64,000 bases of DNA from Billgrantia saliphila. Its GTDB lineage: Bacteria; Pseudomonadota; Gammaproteobacteria; Pseudomonadales; Halomonadaceae. Below, in pieces: positions 11,763 to 16,051 of this stretch (within the stretch, counting starts at the first letter, position 1; every line of letters begins with the position of its first letter). The DNA lies in assembly GCF_002930105.1 (NCBI RefSeq), contig NZ_PJRN01000002.1:186001-250000 (forward strand). Reading direction: 5' to 3'. A program made the translations under genes and the position numbers. The notes under the pieces are model-generated. The model was not told where the DNA came from. It did no database searches and worked only from the letters and a program-made list of their open reading frames with translations.

Positions 11763-12308
11763 TCACAGCACCAACGGGTTGTCAGCGGGAAGCGGCTGAG
11801 TGCCATAGAGCACCCAGACGTCCAGCGCCGGCCCCAGGTCCTCGATCAGGCGCAGCTTGTCGGGGTGCTGCTCCAGCGCCTGGCGAGCACAGATACCCGC
11901 CTCGAAGCGGCCTGCCAGCAGCCCCTCGGCCACCGCCACGGTAGTAGGAGCCTCGATCTCCTCGGCGAACCCCGTGAGGTCGGTGTAGTAGCGGGTGGCC
12001 GGCTGCCGTGCTACCTGGCGAGGTTCGGCGATCTCGCGCCGCGCCAGTAGCGCCAGCGGATGGCTACCGGCGATGAAGGCGTCCACCGGAAAGGCGCGAT
12101 GCATGTAGCGGCCCACGCAATCGGCATGGCTGAAGTGGGCCGTGCACTGCAGGACCCGTTCCACCTCCCCCGCTACCAGCGCTGCGAACGCCGTGGGAAA
12201 ATCGTCGAACAGCCTCGCTTCGGCAGCGGCGGGACCGCGAGCCTCGAGGTATCGGCGCAGCACCAGCGCGTGATTGCTTCCCTCGGGCCCCAGCGTGGCA
12301 ATGATCAT
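11763..12308 (-). CDS. Prephenate dehydratase-like (BacA-like) single-domain protein
   Basis: 181 aa, no signal peptide. It opens with ATLGPEGSNHALVLRRYL, like the GPxGT start of prephenate dehydratase, and has a TRYY segment where the catalytic NxTRF of true dehydratases would fall. No ACT regulatory domain follows. Size and divergence resemble the BacA prephenate decarboxylase group more than PheA. ATG 12308 has GGAGGAGAACGAG upstream. It begins 24 bp after the TRAP permease stop, so it is the third gene of the TAXI transporter operon. The fold is confident to moderate; the substrate is unknown. Confidence 0.6.
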   Translation of the reverse strand: MIIATLGPEGSNHALVLRRYLEARGPAAAEARLFDDFPTAFAALVAGEVERVLQCTAHFSHADCVGRYMHRAFPVDAFIAGSHPLALLARREIAEPRQVARQPATRYYTDLTGFAEEIEAPTTVAVAEGLLAGRFEAGICARQALEQHPDKLRLIEDLGPALDVWVLYGTQPLPADNPLVL

Positions 12309-12332
12309 CTCGTTCTCCTCCGGCCTTGCGGC

Positions 12333-14144
12333 TCATAGCAAAAAGATCACCAGTGTTCCGGCGATGACCAGCGCGACCCGCAGCCACGCCGCACGCCGCG
12401 CAATCACACCGAAGGAGATCGCCGCCAGGCCCGCACCGACCTTCAACATGTCGATGATGGCGGCAACGGGGTCGTAGGCCAGGCGAATGATGTCCGGATT
12501 GGCGATCATGGCCAGCGGTATGATGTAGAGCCCGATGCCCAGCGCCATGGCCTTGATCGCCACCTTGAGCCAGTTCTCCCCCACCATGCCGGCGGCGATG
12601 AAGACCCCGCCGCACACCGGCGGCGTGATGGTCGAGAGCAGCGCGAACCAGAACACGAACAGGTGCGCCAGCAGCGGCTCGAGCCCCAGCGCGGTGAGCG
12701 CCGGGCCCGCCACCGAGACGCAGATCACATAGGCGGCGGTGGTCGGCACCTCCATGCCCAGCACCAGGCAGGCAAGCGCAGTGAACAGCAGCGCCGGCCA
12801 CAGCATTTCTCCTGAAAGCGAAAGGATGGCGGAGGTGATCTTGACGCCGAGTCCCGTCATCGACAGTACGCCGATCACCAGCGAAGCGCAGATGATGATC
12901 GCCCCGATCACCGCCACCTGGCGGCCCGCGATAACCATCGCCTCGCCCATGCGCATGGCGAAGCCGCGCAGCGAGAAGCGCAGGCGCACATCGAAGCACA
13001 GCAGCAACATGCCGGCGAAGATGGCGACGCTCGCTGCGTACTGGGGCGTGACGCCGCCGAGAAAGATGCGCTCGAGCAGCAGCACGAAGGGTACGGCGAA
13101 GAACAGCGAGGTGATCAGCACCTCCTTGCCGCTGGGTTGTTCGCTCGCGGCCATCGGCCGCAGGTCATGTCGCGTGGCAAAGGCGTCGATACCCATCCAC
13201 ACGGTAGCGAAGTAAAGGATCGCCGGCAGTGTCGCCGCCGCCATGATCTGGGTGTAAGGCGTGCCGGTGAGCTCCACCATGACGAAGGCCCCTGCCCCCA
13301 TCAGTGGCGGCATGATCTGCCCGCCCGACGAGGCCACTGCCTCCACGCCGCCGGCCAAGGCGCGCGGATAGCCCAGCCGAACCATGGAGGGAATCGTGAC
13401 CGCCCCGGTGGACGCCACGTTGGCCGAGGCGGAGCCCGAAATCGAACCCATCAGGGCGGATGAGATCACCGAGACCTTGGCCGCCCCGCCAGTCAGCCGT
13501 CCGGCGACGGCGCTGGCCATGTTCATGAAGCCGCGCCCCGCCTCACCGGCGTTGAGCACTGCGCCGAAGATGACGAAGATCGCCACCACCCCGACGCTGA
13601 CCCCGGTCAGCTTGCCCCACAGTCCGCCCTCGGCGATGGTCAGCGTGCCGACGAAGCTCGGCAGTGGCAGCCCCGGATGGCCGAACTGCCCGGGTATCAG
13701 ATCGCCAAACAGCCCATAGAGCAGCGCTGCAAGCGCCACCAGCGGCAGCGGCCAGCCGATCGCTCGGCGCGCCGTCTCCAGCGCCAATACGATCAAGAAG
13801 CCACCGACCAGCATCTGGAAGGCGGTGTCGATGAAACCGTACTGGTTCGACAGCGCCTCCTCGTTGAGCACGATGTAGGCGCAGGCGGCAAGGCCGAGCA
13901 GCGTCAGCCCCCAGCCGCTCCACTGCTCGTAGCGTGACCGCGCGGCGTGGATCAGTATCCACGGCAACGCCAGCGCCATGTGGATCGGCCGGCTCACCAG
14001 GGCCGGCGCCAGGCCGTAGAAGATCAGCCCCAGATGAAACGCCACGGTGATGGCACCCAGGCCCACCCAGAGGGGCTGCAGTCGCACCGAAACGCCGCCG
14101 GCGACCGCGGCGGCCGCCGGCGAGGAACAACGGGTCGATGACAT
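12333..14144 (-). CDS. TRAP transporter fused permease (TAXI type, DctQM fusion)
   Basis: 603-aa inner-membrane protein with about 16 or more hydrophobic helices. The first third corresponds to the small DctQ-like subunit and the rest to the DctM-like channel, with GSISGSASANVASTGAVTIP and the VASSGGQIMPPLMGAGAF block characteristic of fused TAXI-TRAP permeases. It works with the periplasmic receptor encoded just upstream (14208-15185). A strong hairpin in the 63-bp gap between them may lower permease expression relative to receptor. Confidence 0.95.
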   Translation of the reverse strand: MSSTRCSSPAAAAVAGGVSVRLQPLWVGLGAITVAFHLGLIFYGLAPALVSRPIHMALALPWILIHAARSRYEQWSGWGLTLLGLAACAYIVLNEEALSNQYGFIDTAFQMLVGGFLIVLALETARRAIGWPLPLVALAALLYGLFGDLIPGQFGHPGLPLPSFVGTLTIAEGGLWGKLTGVSVGVVAIFVIFGAVLNAGEAGRGFMNMASAVAGRLTGGAAKVSVISSALMGSISGSASANVASTGAVTIPSMVRLGYPRALAGGVEAVASSGGQIMPPLMGAGAFVMVELTGTPYTQIMAAATLPAILYFATVWMGIDAFATRHDLRPMAASEQPSGKEVLITSLFFAVPFVLLLERIFLGGVTPQYAASVAIFAGMLLLCFDVRLRFSLRGFAMRMGEAMVIAGRQVAVIGAIIICASLVIGVLSMTGLGVKITSAILSLSGEMLWPALLFTALACLVLGMEVPTTAAYVICVSVAGPALTALGLEPLLAHLFVFWFALLSTITPPVCGGVFIAAGMVGENWLKVAIKAMALGIGLYIIPLAMIANPDIIRLAYDPVAAIIDMLKVGAGLAAISFGVIARRAAWLRVALVIAGTLVIFLL

Positions 14145-14164
14145 AGACGATCCAGTCTGTCGGC

Positions 14165-14200
14165 CCGGGCCGTATCGGTGGGAGTACCGACCCGGCCCGG
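14165..14200 (-). promoter_or_regulatory. Intercistronic stem-loop between TAXI receptor and permease genes
   Basis: Inverted repeat CCGGGCCG / CGGCCCGG enclosing a second stem TCGGT / ACCGA around a 6-nt loop. Such stems after binding-protein genes commonly protect the upstream mRNA or attenuate downstream genes; that role is inferred here. Confidence 0.5.
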
Positions 14201-14207
14201 TGATTGG

Positions 14208-15185
14208 TTAACGCAACTCGTCGGGAATTTCGATGCTGACTTCGTCGTAGTAGCGTACGGCGCCCGGATGCAGCGATCCGGCGATATTGCCGATCATGTC
14301 GTGGGTGATACTACCCCACCAGGGTGACTCCTCGGCCATGGCCTCGCGCCGCTCCCAGAAGGTTTTGGTCAGGGTATAGGCGGTCTCGTCGTCCATCCCG
14401 GTGGTGGTATAGGCGATCACCGGCAGCGAAGTGGTCTGGACATCCTCGTCGACGCCGGCGTAGGTCCCCCCCGGTATGGTCTGACGTGTCGCCCCGGTCT
14501 GCTCGATCTGTTCGTCGGTGAAACTGACCAGGCTGATCGGCATGCTGGCCGCGGTCTCGATCACGTTGGGCGTGGGAAATGAACTCGCCGTGACGAAGGC
14601 GTCGATCTGGCCGTTCTTCAGTGCATCGGGGCCACTGCCGATCTCGGCGTTGGCCACCTCCACCTTGTCCTGCATGTCGAACAGTTCCAGATAGCGCTCG
14701 GCCTCTCGGGCACCGAAGGTGCCGCGACCGATCAGGATCTCCTTGCCCTCGAGTTCCTCCAGGCCGATCACGCCCGCGTCATCGGCCACCACGAAATGCA
14801 TGGTAATGGCGGGAATGGGGAACAGACCGCGGATCTCCTCGAAACGCGGGTGTTGACGCTCGGCGAAGGGACCCTCGCCCTCCAGCGCCCGCGTCACCAG
14901 CCCGGGCGGCGTAGTGAAGACGTAGTTGCCCTGGCGCGCCATTACCTCCATGACGTTCTGCACCGAACCCTGGCTCTCTTCCAGCGTCACGACGATCTCG
15001 CCGTCGGTCCCCTTGCGGATCGCCTCCGACAGTTCGACCCCCATCTGGTAGTAGGCGGTGCCCGCCGAGGCGGATTTGTAGGTAACTCGAGTCTCGGCCT
15101 GGGCCGACAGAGCGGCGGCGCCCACCAGTACGGCAGTGGCCGATGCCAGAAGCGTGCGAGCGAGGAAATGCGTGCGGTAAGGCAT
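14208..15185 (-). CDS. TAXI-family TRAP transporter solute receptor
   Basis: Periplasmic binding protein, 325 aa, with a signal peptide ending near LSAQA (about residue 30). The mature part follows the TAXI pattern: TYKSASAGTAYYQMGVELSEAI near the N-terminus and ILIGRGTFGAREAERYLELF in the middle. It captures the substrate for the fused permease encoded next. Characterised TAXI substrates are mainly glutamate/2-oxoglutarate-like acids, but most members are unassigned. First gene of a minus-strand operon; its promoter lies in 15186-15301, shared with the divergent SDR. Confidence 0.93.
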   Translation of the reverse strand: MPYRTHFLARTLLASATAVLVGAAALSAQAETRVTYKSASAGTAYYQMGVELSEAIRKGTDGEIVVTLEESQGSVQNVMEVMARQGNYVFTTPPGLVTRALEGEGPFAERQHPRFEEIRGLFPIPAITMHFVVADDAGVIGLEELEGKEILIGRGTFGAREAERYLELFDMQDKVEVANAEIGSGPDALKNGQIDAFVTASSFPTPNVIETAASMPISLVSFTDEQIEQTGATRQTIPGGTYAGVDEDVQTTSLPVIAYTTTGMDDETAYTLTKTFWERREAMAEESPWWGSITHDMIGNIAGSLHPGAVRYYDEVSIEIPDELR

Positions 15186-15278
15186 GTGTCTCTCCGTTCA
15201 TGTCCAGCATCGCTGAGCGATGATCTTGTTATCGTGATGTCATGCAATGGCGTAGCAGTGAAACGTTCTGCAATCACA

Positions 15279-15284
15279 TATAAT
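15279..15284 (+). promoter_or_regulatory. Candidate -10 box of the SDR gene
   Basis: A perfect TATAAT lies 18 nt before the first ATG (15302). No good -35 is seen 16-18 bp upstream, so an activator may be needed. The predicted start site leaves a leader of only about 10-20 nt. Confidence 0.45.
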
Positions 15285-15307
15285 GCCGATTTTTCAGGTA
15301 AATGAGT

Positions 15308-16051
15308 ATGCGCAAAACAGCCATGCGAATCACGGCCGTCCTGGGAGGAGCCGGCGGAATCGGCCTTGCCGTCGCCGAGGCGCTGCTGGAGGCGGGCGAC
15401 TTCGTCTTCGTGCTCGATCTCGAAAAGGCGGAAGAGCGGGTAGCCCACTTGTTCGAGCGATGGCCCGGACGCTGCTGCTTCGTGGCTTGCGACATGGGCG
15501 ACGCCGAAGGCATCTCACGCGCCTTCGCCCGGATCGGGGCACATGGCGAGGGGCTCGACGCCTGTATCAATGCGGCCGGCGTGATCCGTCGCGGAAAGTT
15601 CGTCGACGTCTCACCCGACGAGCTCGGGGAGATGCTTGCGGTCAACGTCAACGGCGCCTATCAGGCGCTGCAGGCCGCCACGCGTCTGATGATCGGCGGG
15701 CACGGCGGTCGCCTGGTCGTCGTCGCATCGGCCCATGGCCTGCGCACCACCGCCGAGCGCACTGCCTACGCCATGTGCAAGGGGGCCATGCTGGCGCTGG
15801 CCCGTGCGCTGGCGGTGGAACTCGGCCCGCACGGCATTCTGGTCAATGCCGTGGCACCGGGGCCGGTCAGCGCCGGTATGCAGGACGCCGCGTCCGAGTC
15901 ACGCCGCCGGTGGCAGGCGGCCACCCCCCTCGGGCGGGTCGCCGAGGCCAGTGAGGTGGCCCGCGCGGTCACCTTCCTGGCTTCCGCCGACAATACGTTC
16001 ATTACCGGCGAAACCGTGGTCGTGGATGGTGGCGCCAGTGTCGCCATGTAG
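15308..16051 (+). CDS. Short-chain dehydrogenase/reductase (SDR)
   Basis: 247-aa classical SDR: nucleotide-binding GGAGGIG (about 13-19), NAAG at 88-91, catalytic S141, Y154 and K158 (YAMCK), and the C-terminal TFITGETVVVDGG. ATG 15308 is favoured over ATG 15302 because AGG at 15296-15298 is 9 nt away from the former and only 3 nt from the latter. It is divergent from the TAXI operon across 116 bp, so it may act on the imported substrate. BacC-, FabG- and dihydrodiol-dehydrogenase-like functions are all possible. Confidence 0.88.
   Translation: MRKTAMRITAVLGGAGGIGLAVAEALLEAGDFVFVLDLEKAEERVAHLFERWPGRCCFVACDMGDAEGISRAFARIGAHGEGLDACINAAGVIRRGKFVDVSPDELGEMLAVNVNGAYQALQAATRLMIGGHGGRLVVVASAHGLRTTAERTAYAMCKGAMLALARALAVELGPHGILVNAVAPGPVSAGMQDAASESRRRWQAATPLGRVAEASEVARAVTFLASADNTFITGETVVVDGGASVAM

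Follow-up and report, generated by a model that had tools for sequence, protein, structure and literature searches.

A TAXI-type TRAP transporter and a stand-alone protein predicted to have the prephenate dehydratase (PDT) fold, here designated PDTL, are encoded by a conserved gene pair in Billgrantia saliphila and related bacteria. The pair was examined in a 64,000-nucleotide stretch of the B. saliphila assembly GCF_002930105.1 (contig NZ_PJRN01000002.1, positions 186,001 to 250,000; "the window"), for which an initial annotation had been made from the sequence. The linkage between PDTL and the transporter is real: a permease gene was found at all 42 related loci from one scan, and the receptor and PDTL co-occur across the genus. 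We tentatively read the locus as an uptake-and-processing module in which PDTL would be a lyase whose substrate is a prephenate-like carboxylate, probably the one taken up, a reading to which we give somewhat less than an even chance. The features of the locus, in window coordinates, are as follows.

11763..12308, minus strand: PDTL, stand-alone PDT-fold protein, 181 amino acids (open reading frame call)
12333..14144, minus strand: TRAP transporter fused permease, 603 amino acids (TIGR02123, PF06808)
14208..15185, minus strand: TAXI-family periplasmic solute receptor, 325 amino acids (TIGR02122; phmmer matches to solved TAXI receptors)
15186..15301, no strand: divergent intergenic region, 116 bp, presumed to hold both promoters
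15302..16051, plus strand: classical short-chain dehydrogenase/reductase (SDR) oxidoreductase, 249 amino acids, an optional member of the module (PF13561)

The receptor, permease, and PDTL genes are codirectional, with gaps of 63 bp between permease and receptor and 24 bp between PDTL and permease, and a GGAGGAG resembling a ribosome-binding site stands before the PDTL start. The SDR gene is divergent, and a sigma-70 consensus scan of the 116 bp separating it from the receptor gene found no promoter site. The receptor scored 188.8 bits against TIGR02122 (TRAP_TAXI; cut-off, 84.35) and the permease 464 bits against TIGR02123 (TRAP_fused; cut-off, 320.65), both above the cut-off. The SDR scored 189.5 bits against PF13561, above the Pfam cut-off, and no specific equivalog cut-off was passed among the best 25 of its 229 matches listed. 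The gene order, an operon with the SDR divergent across 116 bp, was as claimed in the initial annotation; it is more than chance, as dozens of genomes share the arrangement.

Conservation of the PDTL-transporter pair

The linkage counts rest on 42 loci from one pattern scan, nearly all of them from Halomonadaceae, with Zobellella and Oceanisphaera in addition; a few are truncated by contig ends. The permease was present at 42/42 loci and the receptor at 39, the remaining three being L002 and L012, which are cut by contig ends, and L033, which is without a receptor. At 36 of the 42 loci the permease and PDTL lay no more than 129 bp apart, measured between alignment ends. The spacing was wider at L002, L006, L007, and L010, which have repeat-like sequence between the two genes, at L040 (1,677 bp), and at L042 (657 bp), where the permease was matched in part only. 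A separate search of the genus found the permease within a short stretch at 29 of 30 loci (L044 to L073), the exception being L072 in genome G034. The neighborhood survey proposed in the initial annotation therefore revealed a conserved pairing, with the permease beside PDTL and the receptor co-occurring. Repeated REP/MITE-like units, apparently noncoding, were also observed after the permease (L002:1769-2657, L006:6615-7001, L007:6527-7001, L010:6416-7001, and L149:1-217).

Two layouts predominated in a neighborhood set of 51 loci, in which a few genomes appear to be represented twice (L185/L016, L150/L033, and L153/L012). In the first (16 loci), a calcium antiporter gene is followed in the same direction by PDTL, which meets the permease and TAXI genes tail to tail, with NhaD beyond them. 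The second, found in the window (10 complete loci, others partial), runs from Lon and the SDR, divergent from TAXI, through TAXI, permease, and PDTL to IlvD and Gfo. The window operon looks derived, since the deep halomonad PDTL branches (L039, L040, and L041) carry the tail-to-tail form. The pairing was kept in the calcium antiporter/NhaD, Lon/IlvD, DctM/dipeptidase, and Zobellella/Oceanisphaera settings, in two orientations and with varying outer neighbors.

The SDR was less regular. It was present at 16 of the 42 loci and was rejected as a constant partner on this count. The 16 include L040, which has a convergent PDTL gene and an SDR of 54% identity. The initial annotation had made the SDR part of the module by analogy to BacC; both the membership and the analogy are weak, with the SDR at no more than those 16 loci and no specific cut-off passed among the best 25 of 229 matches listed. 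An SDR preceding TAXI in genome G738 (L180), 40% identical, was too weak to count.

Among 61 genomes of the genus, PDTL was found in 32 and an orthologous receptor (at least 70% identity, the next match being at about 31%) also in 32. Thirty genomes had both, 2 had the receptor only, 2 had PDTL only, and 27 had neither; the Fisher p value, without correction for kinship, was 9.5e-13. Four genomes thus had one of the two only. In G024 the contig stops 217 bp past the permease match, in repeat-like sequence, so that a PDTL gene may have been missed; in G042 it ends within the permease; and G058 has neither a receptor nor the beginning of the permease. In G020 the receptor and permease are kept and PDTL is reduced to its first 17 codons (L148:9285-9335), 94% identical to those of L039, a remnant indicating that PDTL was lost. 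Separately, in two other genomes of the family, G833 and G459 (L182 and L183), an orphan TAXI receptor is flanked by NhaD and a gene for a calcium/sodium antiporter, with permease and PDTL missing; related genomes have both at this place.

Farther afield, a PDTL profile matched 3 of 369 genomes of the class, namely the window's own, G389, and a weak 45-residue match in G199 that was not counted, and 3 of 398 genomes of the phylum, all from the family of the window. In the order of G389, PDTL was present in one of four genomes; the G389 gene lies at a contig end, its downstream side being beyond the contig. A literature search found no paper joining TAXI, TRAP transporter, and prephenate dehydratase, though the linkage may still be published.

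Predicted fold and motif register of PDTL

PDTL scored 12 bits (E value of 0.19) against the Pfam PDT family PF00800, below its cut-off of 25.2 bits, and its match to Phosphonate-bd (E value of 0.013) was also under the cut-off. For 27 PDTL relatives the best Pfam E values were 0.00025 for Phosphonate-bd and 0.0024 for PDT, and 16 of them matched PF00800 at E values up to 1. No ACT domain was matched in scans with Pfam and NCBIfam profiles, no chorismate mutase domain in the Pfam scan, and no signal peptide was seen by eye in the first residues, from which PDTL is predicted to be cytoplasmic. The only PF00800 match in the same genome was PheA, on another contig (C46). PDTL is thus not an ordinary PheA domain unrelated to transport, an outcome that would have refuted the proposal of the initial annotation.

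A sequence search of the PDB gave no match with the single PDTL protein and one chance-level match with a profile. An AlphaFold2 model built on the 27-sequence alignment had a mean pLDDT of 87.6 and a pTM of 0.76, and in a Foldseek search with this model prephenate dehydratases ranked first (3mwb, E value of 3.2e-11, TM 0.66 by query). With VIA-align, 3mwb was the best solved match (Z 14.8, rmsd 3.7, 173 residues aligned), accompanied by other entries named prephenate dehydratase (Z 11.5 to 12.3), the acylase GqqA (Z 11.9), and 3luy, named a putative chorismate mutase (Z 11.7); hydroxymethylbilane synthases came next (Z 10.5). On the model, then, PDTL has the prephenate dehydratase fold, and the description of it as a stand-alone PDT-fold protein without an ACT domain was upheld. 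The structure prediction suggested in the initial annotation hence yielded the expected fold, and left the region of residue H58 modeled with low confidence. Structure comparison also indicated that this fold is common to solute receptors and LysR effector domains.

The initial annotation had placed TRYY in the position of the PDT motif NxTRF. In a joint alignment of 46 sequences (20 PDTL rows and 26 outgroup rows), TRYY corresponds to PDTL residues 105 to 108, in the middle of the protein, and aligns with the central SHPQSLAQC motif of PDT, whereas NSTRF aligns with PDTL residues 161 to 165 (ALDVW), with Asp163 at the place of the Thr. TRYY as an altered NxTRF was consequently rejected as a wrong alignment register, while NxTRF is indeed missing from PDTL. 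A GPxGS-type start motif is common to PDTL and PDT.

Relatives of PDTL and clade-specific residues

Compared by hhalign, the 20 PDTL sequences matched an actinobacterial group of three at 98.6% over 165 columns, one TdaC at 96.5% over 167 columns, and one BacA sequence at 81% over 171 columns. Against 28 PheA-type PDT domains the match was 30.9% over 51 columns, at the N terminus only. By profile PDTL is closer to TdaC, BacA, and the actinobacterial proteins than to PheA, in support of the stand-alone PDT/BacA-like protein described in the initial annotation.

One of 29 PDT loci (L147) was dropped because it had no start pattern, and 12 of the 28 PDT domains were included in the joint alignment, 3 of which were shortened by trimming and have gaps at the column of the NxTRF Thr. 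The five BacA-labeled rows comprise the sequence compared by hhalign, two annotated as BacA, and two labeled from similarity, one of which clusters with TdaC in the tree. In a maximum-likelihood tree the 20 PDTL rows formed one group with support of 100/99; the bootstrap was not settled and long branches meet, and the sister group of PDTL is not fixed by this tree. A Streptomyces plasmid match of the window PDTL fell outside the PDTL group.

Both H13 and H58 were present in 20/20 PDTL rows, and His was found at either place in 0/26 outgroup rows; T105, Y108, and G133 were also present in all 20. Place 58 is Tyr in 5/5 BacA-labeled, 3/3 TdaC, and 3/3 other rows. At place 163, Asp was found in 18 of the 20 PDTL rows, Met in 14/14 BacA, TdaC, actinobacterial, and other rows (8/8 of those labeled BacA or TdaC), and Thr in 9 of the 12 PDT rows, the remaining 3 being the gaps from trimming. 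The NxTRF threonine is catalytic in PDT, where it is held to act as an acid, and by analogy D163 could serve as the acid in PDTL.

Other stand-alone PDT-fold genes were observed at L154, L155, L161, and L162, with ATP-grasp, DUF6421, aminotransferase, and EamA/DMT/LysE-family transporter genes as neighbors. At L086 and L087, actinobacterial PDT-fold proteins are encoded in plasmid clusters with GalE-like, aminotransferase, nonribosomal peptide synthetase-type, or P450 genes, and in Nocardia the PDT part lies within an open reading frame annotated as ferredoxin.

Distant members on plasmids

A search with the window PDTL matched six plasmid records, and the PDTL proteins encoded on plasmids were 30 to 41% identical to it; with the Variovorax PDTL, no phage record was matched. 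On two Variovorax plasmids a gene for a TctC-type receptor and an AroQ-type chorismate mutase gene stand in line with PDTL, and both mutases scored above the TIGR01803 cut-off. In V. paradoxus and Variovorax sp. RA8, PDTL lies between the permease and ATPase genes of an amino acid ATP-binding cassette (ABC) importer, and the same set of ABC importer and PDTL genes was found on an unannotated V. paradoxus plasmid. A search via the Variovorax ABC receptor yielded six genomes at 44 to 51% identity.

The PDTL gene on a plasmid of Bradyrhizobium sp. 187 is neighbored by PabA- and PabB-type genes, a histone deacetylase-like gene, a chorismate mutase gene, and a major facilitator superfamily (MFS) transporter gene. 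This mutase was above the cut-off for PF01817 and, at 64.7 bits, below that for TIGR01803 (73.35); the Variovorax and Bradyrhizobium mutases are 37 to 41% identical, and no signal peptide was seen by eye in either. PabA and PabB together with a mutase recall the PapA/PapB route to 4-amino-4-deoxyprephenate, and on such a route in Bradyrhizobium PDTL would, here too, come after a prephenate analogue. The chorismate mutase neighbors of these distant members make a prephenate-type chemistry for PDTL more likely. Seven further Bradyrhizobium plasmids gave partial, two-piece PDTL matches only.

Two side observations concern Variovorax sp. RA8 (L085:9459-12537): genes for an Lrp regulator and for a member of the indolepyruvate ferredoxin oxidoreductase family lie near the ABC-PDTL operon, and an acyl-homoserine-lactone synthase gene lies upstream.

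TAXI receptor pocket and transporters without PDTL

Forty aligned receptors were compared with the glutamate receptor VcGluP, whose glutamate contacts (Tyr45, Gln93, and others) were taken from PMC11574862. Tyr45 was kept in 40/40 and Ser75 in 39, with one gap. Five contacts were replaced in all 40, namely, H123 by P, E125 by I or L, D157 by A, Y200 by T, and M201 by A or S, and Gln was found at place 93 in none, the register being uncertain there. Glutamate is unlikely to be the ligand of these receptors, since several VcGluP contacts are replaced, and the smaller side chains at 200 and 201 could admit a larger ligand. A TAXI paralogue encoded in the same genome is also not glutamate-like. 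TAXI-TRAP systems are cited in PMC12344293 for 2-oxoglutarate and 2-hydroxyglutarate, and the same source names the ring diacid o-phthalate as the compound carried by a TAXI-TRAP system of Azoarcus.

Receptor-permease pairs without PDTL were found on Tritonibacter, Leisingera, Sulfitobacter, and Paracoccus plasmids. Ten PDTL-free stretches, of which eight have the permease adjacent or close by and two hold orphan receptors, were searched with 20 PDTL queries, and nothing beyond a chance-level match was obtained (L181, E values of 0.015 to 0.07). Since orthologous pairs occur without PDTL, the transporter can work without it. At VcGluP places 40 and 44, the PDTL-linked receptors have mostly Ser/Ala and the PDTL-free ones mostly Lys/Ser, and the neighbors of the PDTL-free orthologues included no consistent enzyme hinting at the ligand. 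In single cases, a TAXI-permease pair is followed in G720 (L184:1031-4218) by a 3-carboxy-cis,cis-muconate cycloisomerase-like lyase gene, a possible hint to a muconate-type ligand; a malonyl-CoA synthase-like gene lies upstream in G738; and on the Tritonibacter mobilis plasmid NZ_LR027555.1 (L176 and L156) an orthologous pair lies roughly 18 kb from a tda-type cluster with a tdaC-like gene.

Proposed function and alternatives

In the module that we propose, the TAXI receptor would capture an organic carboxylate that is probably other than glutamate, for import through the fused TRAP permease. In the cytoplasm PDTL, as an acid-base lyase, would then dehydrate or decarboxylate a prephenate-like cyclohexadienyl carboxylate, the simplest case being that this is the compound just imported, and in some lineages the divergent SDR may reduce or oxidize the product. 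Gene order, conservation, fold, motif register, and clade residues were observed here, whereas we infer that PDTL is catalytic, that it acts on the imported compound, and that the SDR takes part. The ligands of TAXI transporters are described in PMC12344293 as poorly characterized. With a conserved gene pair joining a TAXI transporter to a stand-alone PDT-fold protein, one set of compounds could serve the search for both the ligand and the reaction. The linkage suggests that salt-loving bacteria import and process a ring-shaped acid, and a prephenate-like ligand would bear on the reason for which certain bacteria deal with chorismate and prephenate apart from making them, a question discussed for exported enzymes in PMC10520331. 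On a wider and unlikely generalization, PDTL would represent an unrecognized family of cytoplasmic PDT-fold lyases serving the uptake of shikimate pathway-type ring acids. Such lyases would work with TAXI-TRAP, TctC-type, ABC, or MFS carriers, joined in certain bacteria by a dedicated chorismate mutase, so that chorismate, prephenate, arogenate, or similar cyclohexadienyl compounds from outside the cell would be used as nutrients or signals.

Several observations weigh against the proposed module. The lyase activity and the receptor ligand are proposed from sequence and a model, and comparing sequences cannot tell an enzyme apart from a ligand-binding protein that shares its fold; the best Pfam E value among the 27 relatives is that of Phosphonate-bd, not PDT, and the window protein is below both cut-offs. 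Of the inner parts of the model, the one that holds H58 has the lowest certainty (pLDDT of 72 for residues 51 to 60 and 63 for residues 61 to 70). The permease and PDTL are 5.2 kb apart in G034, the SDR is absent from 26 of the 42 loci (a few of these truncated), and G020 keeps receptor and permease after the loss of PDTL. The aligned pocket residues of PDTL-free receptors are almost unchanged, and hence PDTL may not be needed for the substrate; because most of these residues are shared, the pocket alone is also a weak pointer to the PDTL substrate. Finally, orthologous receptor-permease pairs (52 to 66% identical) occur without PDTL on Rhodobacterales plasmids and in other genomes, which counts against an obligatory coupling.

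One alternative is that PDTL acts on endogenous prephenate, supplied by the chorismate mutase of PheA or of an adjacent gene, and diverts it to a product such as a nonaromatic keto acid, while the transporter handles a different or downstream compound. The chorismate mutase genes adjoining PDTL on two Variovorax plasmids and one Bradyrhizobium plasmid, whose products have no signal peptide visible by eye, are consistent with this, as are the receptors of this type that exist without PDTL and the action of the related BacA on prephenate in the bacilysin pathway (PMC9147277). However, the constant neighbors of PDTL in Halomonadaceae are importer rather than biosynthetic genes, and linkage to importers dependent on a solute-binding protein recurs in distant members; we regard this explanation as doubtful.

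A similar doubt, slightly the stronger, attaches to PDTL as a nonenzymatic cytoplasmic ligand-binding protein with a fold like that of type II periplasmic binding proteins, which would sense the imported solute and regulate the transporter. There is a parallel in TeaD, which is thought to be a regulatory accessory protein of the ectoine TRAP transporter. The occurrence of the fold in solute receptors and LysR effector domains, the weak Phosphonate-bd similarity of the window protein and its relatives, and the place of the PDTL gene in the Variovorax ABC operons, flanked by those for permease and ATPase, would all suit a sensor, but the two invariant His residues, the Asp at the place of the catalytic Thr, and the chorismate mutase neighbor of some members look like catalysis.

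It is improbable that the linkage is mostly inherited synteny and that PDTL and transporter have separate roles. A single family supplies nearly all loci, and the two orientations may go back to one inversion, yet adjacency was kept across chromosomal settings while outer neighbors changed, receptor and PDTL co-occur genus-wide, and other transporter genes adjoin the distant members. An ordinary PDT domain serving phenylalanine synthesis, which would share the fold and the GPxGS-type start motif, was rejected as very improbable, since PDTL is below the PF00800 cut-off while the genome search with that family gives PheA only, the NxTRF Thr is replaced, and the hhalign match to PheA-type PDT covers the N terminus only.

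Comparison with known systems

The window receptor and permease are ordinary members of the TAXI-TRAP group, like VcGluP, TtGluBP, and the Azoarcus o-phthalate system; the difference from VcGluP lies in the contacts replaced in all 40 receptors. The PDT domain of PheA resembles PDTL in fold and start motif, whereas PDTL scores below the Pfam cut-off for this domain, is without NxTRF, and matched no ACT or chorismate mutase domain.

Exported fusions of chorismate mutase and cyclohexadienyl dehydratase are comparable in that they are prephenate pathway enzymes neighbored by genes for a transporter and a solute-binding protein (PMC10520331). They differ in being exported, and their dehydratase part is of the PheC type, which that source describes as thought to derive from periplasmic binding proteins. 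For PDTL, in contrast, no signal peptide was seen by eye, and PDT structures were matched first.

TdaC, from the tropodithietic acid cluster of Phaeobacter, is likewise a stand-alone PDT-fold protein, with a profile match to PDTL over 167 columns, but it has Cys and Tyr at the places of H13 and H58 and Met at that of D163, and its gene lies in a tda-type cluster. The role of TdaC is called obscure in PMC7497051, and Janthinobacterium is described in PMC13163973 as making tropodithietic acid without a tdaC homologue.

BacA, which decarboxylates prephenate without aromatization (PMC9147277), is like PDTL a stand-alone PDT-fold protein, of about 200 amino acids, without an ACT domain; the profile match between PDTL and the one BacA sequence compared is full-length, and in Streptomyces a gene annotated as BacA is likewise followed by SDR genes. 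PDTL, however, goes with importer genes rather than with those of an antibiotic cluster; it has His and Asp where the BacA-labeled rows have Tyr (place 58) and Met (place 163), and it forms its own group in the tree. As it does not share the residues common to the BacA rows, we do not file PDTL as BacA, to which it nevertheless appears related at the level of fold and profile.

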